Shown one piece after another: positions 51,893 through 53,354 of a stretch of 64,000 bases of DNA; position 1 is the stretch's first letter, and each line of letters opens with the position of its first letter. The stretch is from Streptomyces sp. 6-11-2 (GTDB lineage: Bacteria; Actinomycetota; Actinomycetes; Streptomycetales; Streptomycetaceae), in contig NZ_BJOR01000001.1 in the NCBI RefSeq assembly GCF_006540305.1, forward strand, positions 4,216,001 through 4,280,000, in the 5' to 3' direction. The notes under the pieces were generated by a model. It made no database searches, was not told where the DNA came from, and saw only the letters and a list, made by a program, of their open reading frames with translations. The translations under genes were made by a program, and so were the position numbers.

Positions 51893-52432
51893 TCAGGCGC
51901 CGGCCGCGCCCGCCAGCCCGGGGAGGACCCCTGCGCACTGGGCGGCGGTGTGGGCCGCCCCGGTCGAGGACCGGGCGTGCATGGGCATCTCGGTCAGGCC
52001 GGGGAAGTAGACGTGCAGGCTGACCGCCGGCTCCAGCGAGTCGTTGACGACCTCGTGCGCGTACCCGGGCGCGAACACGCGCTGAGCGCCCGCCCCCAGC
52101 GCGCGCGTGGCCCGCGCGGTGCGCTCGGTCAGCTCGCCGTCCAGGACCGTGAGCACGCCGGAGGAGGGGCCGTGGTCGTGGAGTCCGCTGCCCTGTCCGG
52201 GCACCCAGGACAGGAGCCACACCTCGTAGCCCGGGCCGGTGCGCAGCCGGTGGTACCAGCGGGTCGTCGCGTCGTAGCGGACGAGGTGCGCCCACTGGGC
52301 GCGGTCGGCCGCGAGGGAGCGGGCCAGTCCGACGAACTCGGCCACGGTGGAGGGGTGTTCGCGGGGGGCCTGGAGCAGGTGCGGGACTTCGAGGAGGTCG
52401 CCGGCGATCTGGAGGTCGCTGTCGCTGTTCAT
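51893..52432 (-). CDS. cdo: cysteine dioxygenase
   Basis: 179 residues; ATG 52432. A cupin fold with metal ligands H85 and H87 in [23 protein letters not shown] and H126 in PGYAHEVVN. It oxidises cysteine to cysteine sulfinate with Fe(II) and O2; related thiol dioxygenases act on mercaptopropionate. The N-terminal DLLEVPHLL and the middle [25 protein letters not shown] are typical of the bacterial type. There is no good ribosome-binding site right before the start; GAGGAA at 52446-52451 lies 13 nt away and is paired in a predicted hairpin. A polycysteine leader ORF sits 99 bp upstream, so expression is probably tied to cysteine supply. Confidence 0.93.
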
Positions 52433-52444
52433 GAGGGTGGGGAG

Positions 52445-52474
52445 GTTCCTCGGTGAAAGAAGGTCAGAGGGAAC
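52445..52474 (-). promoter_or_regulatory. hairpin covering the cdo ribosome-binding site
   Basis: On the minus strand, GTTCCCTC (52474-52467) can pair with GAGGAAC (52451-52445), seven pairs with one bulged C and a 15-nt loop. This would hide the GAGGAA that serves cdo. The role is inferred from base pairing. Confidence 0.5.
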
Positions 52475-52531
52475 GGGGGCCCGGCCGAAAAGGTCCGGAC
52501 GACGGCTGGAGCACGCGTGACGCGCGGGGGC

Positions 52532-52624
52532 TCAACAGCCGCAACAGCGACAGCTGCAGCGAGCGTGGGCAGCACCGAGGGACCCGGCGGTGCGGGTCGT
52601 GGTGAGTGCCGAGTTCGCGAGCAT
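52532..52624 (-). CDS. polycysteine leader peptide of cdo (30 aa)
   Basis: A 30-residue ORF, ATG 52624 to TGA 52532, ending ARCSCRCCGC: five Cys in the last eight codons. It is read in a different frame from any longer overlapping ORF. No alternative start lies between the upstream in-frame TGA and this ATG. There is no ribosome-binding site: a TTGACA / 17 bp / TTGCCT promoter puts the transcription start at or very near the ATG (leaderless). Short leaderless ORFs with consecutive Cys codons act as cysteine-responsive attenuators in mycobacteria. Here one precedes cysteine dioxygenase by 99 bp. Ribosome slowing at the Cys codons could change the fold that hides the cdo ribosome-binding site. 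Confidence 0.75.
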   Translation of the reverse strand: MLANSALTTTRTAGSLGAAHARCSCRCCGC

Positions 52625-52631
52625 GCCCTCT

Positions 52632-52660
52632 AGGCAAGCGGCTCACACCCCCACTGTCAA
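52632..52660 (-). promoter_or_regulatory. promoter of the leader ORF / cdo
   Basis: Minus strand: -35 TTGACA (52660-52655), 17-bp spacer, -10 TTGCCT (52637-52632), then 7 nt to the leader ATG. The -35 is a perfect consensus, rare in this GC-rich DNA. Confidence 0.65.
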
Positions 52661-52700
52661 CTTGACGCCCGGAATGTGGGACATGTTTCACCTCATCCGG

Positions 52701-52717
52701 TTCATCTCACAGATGAA
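52701..52717. promoter_or_regulatory. perfect palindrome TTCATCT-CAC-AGATGAA
   Basis: 7-bp arms with a 3-bp spacer, 41 bp upstream of the cdo -35 element and 370 bp before whiB, in the 466-bp region 52625-53090 that has no long gene. The A/T-rich arms stand out and suggest a regulator binding site; the regulator is unknown. Confidence 0.45.
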
Positions 52718-52988
52718 AGGTTTGCTCGTGGGGGTACCGGGACACATGGCGCACATGCCGGGCGCGCAAGCCCCGTTGCGATCCCGTGATCAGACCGTGA
52801 TCCAGGTCGCTTCGGTGTGCGTGTCGGAACGAGATCGAAGTCCGGGGCGTCCTTCCCTGTGCGGGCTCCGCGTGGGGCGCGAGACCTTCGGAGCCTCGGC
52901 CATGTGTCATGGTTTATGACGATTTGAACACTTTCCGCATGGCCTTGGTTCCGCAGAGTGAATAAGGGGCTCAATAGCAGATCTCGGC

Positions 52989-53090: not shown

Positions 53091-53354
53091 ATGACCGAGC
53101 TGGTGCAGCAACTGCTGGTCGACGACGCGGACGAGGAACTCGGCTGGCAGGAGCGCGCGCTGTGCGCCCAGACCGACCCCGAGTCCTTCTTCCCCGAGAA
53201 GGGCGGCTCCACCCGCGAGGCCAAGAAGGTCTGCCTCGCCTGCGAGGTCCGCTCCGAGTGCCTCGAGTACGCCCTCGCCAACGACGAGCGCTTCGGCATC
53301 TGGGGTGGTCTGTCCGAGCGGGAGCGCCGCCGTCTGAAGAAGGCGGCCGTCTGA
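53091..53354 (+). CDS. whiB: transcriptional regulator WhiB
   Basis: 87 residues from ATG 53091. A [4Fe-4S] cluster is held by C25, C48, C51 and C57 (the usual WhiB cysteine spacing), followed by the GIWGG turn at 69-73 and the basic tail ERERRRLKKAAV for DNA binding. The sequence MTELVQQLLVDDADEELGW is that of Streptomyces WhiB itself, which with WhiA triggers septation in aerial hyphae; its mycobacterial counterpart is WhiB2. The 5' region is long, with at least one principal-sigma-type promoter. It is monocistronic. Confidence 0.96.
   Translation: MTELVQQLLVDDADEELGWQERALCAQTDPESFFPEKGGSTREAKKVCLACEVRSECLEYALANDERFGIWGGLSERERRRLKKAAV

Follow-up and report, generated by a model that had tools for sequence, protein, structure and literature searches.

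A conserved polycysteine leader ORF ahead of a cysteine dioxygenase gene in Streptomyces as a candidate cysteine-responsive attenuator

Polycysteine leaderless short ORFs of mycobacteria have reportedly been described as attenuators by Canestrari et al. 2020 (Mol Microbiol 114:93). Such ORFs are mentioned in passages of PMC13236596 and PMC9094748, earlier mycobacterial cases appear in passages of PMC4633059, and a translational logic for mycobacterial Cys genes is described in part of PMC13236596. Candidate Cys leaders of cys/cbs operons were proposed for Mycobacterium, Propionibacterium and Bifidobacterium in sections of PMC1262725; their targets are biosynthetic and, for cysteine, these sections name no Streptomyces or cdo case. 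The attenuators of S. lividans TK24 are Streptomyces leader peptides, mostly leaderless, and the table in the excerpted part of PMC8079986 holds eight of them, none for cdo or cysteine. No paper linking a bacterial cysteine dioxygenase to an upstream ORF or leader peptide turned up in our literature search, which covered few subscription papers, so that this absence is weak evidence.

Here we analysed a leader ORF preceding cdo, the gene of a cysteine dioxygenase family protein, in a 64,000-nt stretch of the Streptomyces sp. 6-11-2 genome (the whole of which is called the window). Like the mycobacterial attenuators, this leader is probably leaderless and carries its Cys run near the stop, and in our models a free tract sequesters the initiation region while a stalled ribosome releases it. 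Unlike them, it precedes a gene that degrades cysteine (PF05995 CDO_I) instead of cysteine supply genes, the pairing involves the G of the start codon and codons 2-5 instead of the SD, and the ORF contains a covarying hairpin. Runs of Cys codons near the stop and the lack of an obvious terminator are shared with the cys/cbs leaders, and probable leaderless initiation with most of those of S. lividans. Cys codons near the stop, before sulfur genes, are also found in the 'putative leader peptide' family NF042934 (RRHVDLxRVASAxC type). Among 11 Streptomycetaceae cdo leaders tested, none matched NF042934 (cis_reg_atten, cut-off 27 bits) or NF042933 (leader_Ms5788A, cut-off 45 bits). The novelty lies in the target and the structured ORF.

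The leader ORF, its promoter and its conservation

The features of the locus are listed in Table 1. The sequence-only reading had pointed to the ORF at 52624-52532 with five Cys in its final eight codons and had likened it to mycobacterial cysteine attenuators, here ahead of a degradative gene; the ORF is as described, and the comparison is supported. Of 152 ATG ORFs of 10-60 aa in the window, no other has four or more Cys among its final eight codons.

Table 1. Features of the cdo locus in window coordinates.
Feature	Position	Strand	Description	Basis
whiB	53091-53354	+		
Promoter	52632..52660	-	TTGACA (52660-52655), 17 nt, TTGCCT (52637-52632), 7 nt, ATG	
Leader ORF	52532..52624	-	30 codons, MLANSALTTTRTAGSLGAAHARCSCRCCGC*, ends CSCRCCGC-TGA	sequence and conservation
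P1	52568..52610	-	hairpin in ORF codons 5-19, GGCA..CACC..GACCCG/CGGGTC..GGTG..TGCC	stability z, covariation, window fold
Anti-start tract	52543..52554	-	GCTGTCGCTGTT in the Cys codons	complementarity to the start of cdo (codons 2-5)
HP1	52503..52541	-	last Cys codon and stop (CGGCTGTTGAGC) paired with GCTCCAGCCG	window fold
Spacer	52433..52531	-	C-rich and G-poor, C 48 and G 22 of 99	
HP2	52479..52500	-	spacer stem-loop	window fold; compensatory changes in close relatives, by eye
SD hairpin	52445..52474	-	GTTCCCTC (52474-52467) with GAGGAAC (52451-52445)	window sequence and fold
cdo start	52418..52432	-	ATGAACAGCGACAGC; 52429-52418 pairs with the Cys tract	
cdo	51893..52432	-	cysteine dioxygenase family protein, 179 aa	PF05995 (CDO_I), E 2.4e-20
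cofD	51826-50837	-	downstream of cdo	
F420 ligase/nitroreductase fusion	50837-49503	-	after cofD	

The promoter proposed in the same reading was present as far as its two hexamers and the 7-nt gap to the ATG are concerned, but a strict sigma-70 scan reported no promoter at the leader and the -10 is atypical: TTGCCT is without the A of TAnnnT, the -10 consensus of S. lividans given in the excerpted part of PMC8079986. Leaderless initiation at the leader ATG is nevertheless suggested by the TTGAC-ATG distance. No Rfam cis-regulatory RNA reached its gathering score in the window. There were no terminator-like sites in 52300-52800 and no hairpin with a U-run, and the intrinsic terminator plus U-run before the gene that marks a classical trp-type attenuator is thus lacking.

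A cdo match was found in all 297 Streptomycetaceae genomes searched, and the upstream DNA was examined at 227 cdo loci, 213 from Streptomycetaceae and 14 from other families. A leader ORF with a Cys tail was detected in 208 of the 213, 204 by script and four by eye (L169, L170, L172 and L182, missed by the script filter). By script, such an ORF was present at 206 of the 227 loci and TTGAC at 205 of these 206, one (L038) from another family; the script favoured ORFs with TTGAC when several fitted, with a chance estimate of ~1% per candidate. The distance from TTGAC to the start was always 35-37 nt (~36 nt) in the 205 loci. Within the Streptomycetaceae no Cys leader was seen in L033, L158 and L195, while L036 consists of N at the leader position and L174 has a candidate only, without promoter. 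Among the 14 loci of other families, Cys leaders were found at L038 and at nine loci of one genus (g3), and none was seen at L037, L039, L040 and L041. LRRAASALC-like leaders occur at the cdo locus of some other genera; assignment of the cdo start is frequently uncertain in the 30 loci that come from genera other than Streptomyces.

The 179 distinct leader ORF sequences have on average 4.9 Cys in the last 12 residues and end with TGA (175) or TAG (4). Two main types were recognised in Streptomyces, MLAN...ARCSCCCSSC and MPAT...VQARCCCCCPSC. Some loci are the same species out of two collections and the sequences are related, so that none of these counts is independent. The proposed test of Cys-codon conservation in relatives was therewith run, and the codons are conserved at the 208 of 213 loci; judged by this comparison, the polycysteine leader before cdo is real and family-wide.

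Predicted RNA structures of the leader and the spacer

The hairpin P1 was more stable than expected, with mean z values of -1.55 (97 sequences), -1.96 (51) and -1.23 (24, other genera) against -0.13 for control cdo coding DNA. In the MLAN clade (124 loci), leader codons 2-22 showed 91/147/78 change events at codon positions 1/2/3, compared to 460/414/1616 for cdo itself. Unpaired P1 sites varied 2.7 times as often as paired ones (7.3 vs 2.7 change events per site, permutation p 0.014). Among 104 distinct cores, 75% of the stem positions formed standard pairs, compared to 26-53% when the stem was slid; double-change cells numbered 70, against 28-48 when slid and a mean of 23 in shuffles, of which 0/500 reached 70. 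The compensatory changes include C-G to G-C, C-G to U-A and G-C to A-U, while the number of additional pair types was unremarkable, being reached by 35/500 shuffles. The MLAN... and MPAT... clades have differing peptides and the same P1 hairpin. By this pattern of changes, the first 22 codons of the leader are constrained as RNA, without protein-like selection. Frame +2 of the leader looked protein-like at first (ratio 0.44). A peptide-level function of the N-terminal half was rejected; the variable sites are instead P1 loops or wobble positions. P1 was also rejected as a hairpin of all Cys leaders: the mean z was -1.51 in 162 cdo leaders, while 31 other NF042934-type leaders lacked this excess (mean z -0.31).

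Every base of the tract at 52554-52543 has its complement in cdo codons 2-5 (52429-52418). When leader and cdo start of the window were folded together, a single predicted structure combined P1, HP1, HP2, the SD hairpin and the tract:start helix (z -3.94; 0/200 shuffles as stable). Over 129 distinct tail/start pairs the duplex energy averaged -22.9 kcal/mol (z -3.2 relative to shuffled starts). In 116 of 121 distinct tail/start pairs, the segment of the leader transcript that best complements cdo +3..+15 lies in the Cys tail; on average 11.9/13 positions are paired, compared to 10.4 for codon-shuffled tails. The uninterrupted complementary run measures 12 bp in the window, and of 105 pairs whose mapped cdo start is ATG, 72 have a run of 12 bp or more. 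Of 1,040 ATG-started 24-mers of the window, 1.2% equal the 12-bp run with the window tail, while for L023, with a run of 10, 5.6% of ATG 24-mers equal it. By energy alone the pairing in the window is unremarkable (12.6% of window 24-mers bind the tail as well). When starts were swapped among variants, the own partner was not preferred, and two variants paired slightly better with the commonest start than with their own. Since the helix is nearly invariant, covariation is unable to test it. Third-position conservation in cdo codons 2-5 was not clearly above codon preference, and pairing was weak in the relatives L208, L211, L218 and L161.

The effect of a stalled ribosome was modelled by masking, in folds at 37 °C and with the footprint taken to be -17 to +14 relative to the A site; the set comprised the first 90 distinct sequences whose cdo begins with ATGAAC and whose spacer does not exceed 200 nt. 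The free tract paired with the cdo start in 90/90 leaders (mean 13.1 bp), and this fell to 2.8 bp when the ribosome stood at the first Cys codon and to 0.5 bp when it stood at the third. The cost of opening -18..+14 fell from 19.3 to 11.7 (first Cys) or 11.0 kcal/mol (third Cys), a drop of 7.7 or 8.3 kcal/mol that exceeded 1 kcal/mol in 86/90 and 89/90, respectively. With the ribosome at the leader stop the start was partly open too (14.1 vs 19.3 kcal/mol).

The sequence-only reading had also proposed a hairpin hiding the ribosome binding site. This hairpin exists in the window, but it fails as a general switch. The GTTCCCTC/GAGGAAC pairing is found mainly in one subclade; RNAalifold on three groups (43, 70 and 27 sequences) predicted neither HP2 nor the SD hairpin; and in 164 sequences the complementarity between SD and spacer did not exceed that of shuffled spacers (mean z +0.38). 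Whether the ribosome stood at the first Cys or at the stop made no overall difference to the cost of opening the SD, which went up in 22 and down in 24 of 162 sequences by more than 0.5 kcal/mol; sequences without recognisable SD were excluded from this test (29) and from the shuffle test. Full-length folds with the ribosome at different positions, made for the first 110 sequences (ATG start, SD, spacer of at most 185 nt), agree that the SD is insensitive to ribosome position, and the RBS-hiding hairpin was rejected as a general switch. In the stalled model the SD acquires some pairing with the 5' half of the leader in 51/110, and no conserved partner was seen by eye for pairing of the leader 5' half with the spacer in that state.

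HP1 retains at least 5 of 6 pairs of its outer stem in 131 of 166 distinct loci of the genus Streptomyces and in 1 of 24 from other genera, and is on this distribution a genus-level feature. The spacer, 56 to ~295 nt long as measured by script, had a mean C/G skew of 0.33 (203 loci), higher than in the coding DNA of cdo (0.19, 202 loci) and in the intergenic DNA upstream (0.03, 200 loci); a skew like that of the cdo spacer was found in 0.13% of 99-nt windows.

A proposed switch and competing explanations

We propose, with a probability of roughly two in three, that the leader acts as a cysteine-responsive translational attenuator in which the tract:start pairing is the switch and a shortage of Cys-tRNA turns cdo on. 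Transcription would probably start at the AUG of the leader itself, and the Cys-codon RNA GCUGUYGCUGUU is complementary to the first cdo codons AACAGCGACAGC. With ample Cys-tRNA the modelled ribosome clears the leader, so that the free tract could pair with the cdo start and block initiation; with scarce Cys-tRNA it would stall on the tract and cover it, and the cdo start would open. P1 may hold the 5' half of the leader folded upon itself, while HP1 and HP2 may compact the variable spacer and bring tract and start together. The predicted sign is more cdo translation at cysteine shortage. Our data show the conservation, the complementarity and the covariation of P1; stalling, regulation and sign are inferred. 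Such a sign is odd for a cysteine-consuming enzyme. Since it is also the mycobacterial sign, the logic does not look reversed, as the sequence-only reading had considered, and the oddity is the target. The tension noted there, a cysteine attenuator before a cysteine-degrading gene, stands, and is widened by a second cdo (with rhodanese) and by homologues in other families, which follow Cys leaders too.

A degradative enzyme is expected to be induced by its own substrate, and a switch of the opposite sign would fit this physiology: with ample cysteine, translation of the Cys codons would be needed for cdo, either because a ribosome at the stop would melt HP1 or by way of coupling. In the models, HP1 was formed with the ribosome at the first Cys and gone with the ribosome at the stop (105/110), and at 9/9 loci of genus g3 the leader MSAPLLAWSDRPVDLLRVASCMC... 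extends 23-35 nt beyond the cdo start, a range where terminating ribosomes could reinitiate. However, the cdo start is less open with the ribosome at the stop than in a Cys-tract stall (14.1 vs 11.0-11.7 kcal/mol), accessibility of the SD is unchanged by ribosome position, no partner linking HP1 to cdo was found, and HP1 is almost missing outside the genus (1/24). We regard the opposite sign as unlikely, though not negligible. Rho-dependent attenuation appears rather improbable. Here the C-rich, G-poor spacer would be a Rho loading site, the leader ribosome or the structures would decide, and P1 may be a pause hairpin for RNA polymerase. The skew of the spacer relative to the upstream intergenic and cdo coding DNA speaks for it, and a section of PMC1262725 weakly predicts Rho involvement in the case of other actinobacterial cys leaders. 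But the C-rich spacer is unspecific for Rho because spacers after other Cys leaders are C-rich too (skew 0.23, n = 33; second-cdo leaders 0.30, n = 30), and a ribosome on the Cys codons leaves most of the spacer exposed either way, given its range of lengths.

A TnaC-like arrest peptide, whose nascent chain instead of Cys-tRNA would sense free cysteine, would suit a conserved ORF that precedes a catabolic gene; it is made very improbable by the N-terminal 22 codons, which vary most at second positions, and by the two clades in which unlike peptides keep the same hairpin. Short ORFs are many in GC-rich DNA, but a chance, functionless ORF in the whiB-cdo gap is contradicted by the TTGAC distance, the Cys tail and the stop, all of them conserved across the family, and we give this explanation practically no credence.

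If the attenuator with Cys-tRNA shortage as the ON signal is right, cysteine attenuation would reach Streptomyces and a degradative enzyme, beyond mycobacteria and cysteine supply. Tentatively, and with rather more reserve than for the switch itself, we suggest that streptomycete thiol dioxygenases may belong to a cysteine-starvation response that is on at Cys-tRNA shortage, with a dual-use leader RNA whose sensor codons are the antisense of the target start. It would be a compact case, as sensor codons and anti-start share bases. The CDO would then serve sulfur salvage, another thiol substrate, or Cys-tRNA or redox stress, and not cysteine disposal. Resolving the sign would, through the paradox of a shortage-induced cysteine dioxygenase, tell the purpose of bacterial CDOs.

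Related leaders and the target gene

In this genome, NF042934 matches exceeding the cut-off are found upstream of a second cdo, which a rhodanese gene follows, of a CysO-like/CysM pair and of a rhodanese gene, while weaker matches precede symporter, sulfite reductase-like, isopenicillin N synthase-like and O-acetylhomoserine sulfhydrylase-like genes, all named by reading translations. At the loose threshold matches were obtained in 10 of 14 control genomes too, none over the cut-off. The NF042934-like leaders of these genes other than the second cdo (L229-L234; two over the cut-off, four below) form a candidate cysteine leader regulon of this genome.

The second cdo leader (L228, 1486-1572) scored 37.1 bits with NF042934 and has a strong hairpin before its Cys codons. 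By coordinates, a match lies just upstream of the second cdo in at least 16 of 19 Streptomyces genomes (G000-G018). The pair of second cdo and rhodanese may be linked to ergothioneine dioxygenase/desulfinase pairs. The g3 loci (L042-L050), from another family of the same order, share the near-invariant leader MSAPLLAWSDRPVDLLRVASCMC, which reaches into cdo as described above and scored 22.6 bits with NF042934, under the cut-off. Hairpins before the Cys codons had a mean z of -2.52 in the second-cdo set (25 nearly alike sequences, including L307 and L308, which are not second-cdo leaders) and of -1.69 in the g3 leader (6); both samples are small and related. Thiol dioxygenases are thus repeatedly preceded by Cys leaders, as judged from two cdo paralogues here and homologues in other families.

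The cdo product is a CDO_I-family cupin, and its top PDB relatives bear the name cysteine dioxygenase. It shows the pattern of the Arg type, with YHR (Tyr-x-Arg) ahead of the cupin HDH, and a His-x-Tyr near its end (His-Val-Tyr in the alignments of the PDB matches). We take Tyr-x-Arg to be the equivalent of rat Y58/R60. In a pattern scan Tyr-x-Arg stood at the expected place in 176 of 206 cdo loci, while 17 were without the pattern and 13 had another one, some of these probably being misassigned starts. By its motifs the product is a putative Arg-type cysteine dioxygenase.

The leader lies in the whiB-cdo gap, and SCO3035, adjoining whiB in S. coelicolor, is presumably the cdo orthologue. SCO3035, near metNIQ, is tabulated among genes of the redox system HbpS-SenS-SenR in the excerpted part of PMC4991794. 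The same gap contains, upstream of the cdo promoter, an inverted repeat TTCATC-TGTGA-GATGAA (52717-52701, minus strand), of which translated traces occur in many relatives (QTFHL..EPDEV); it is a possible operator of whiB or cdo.
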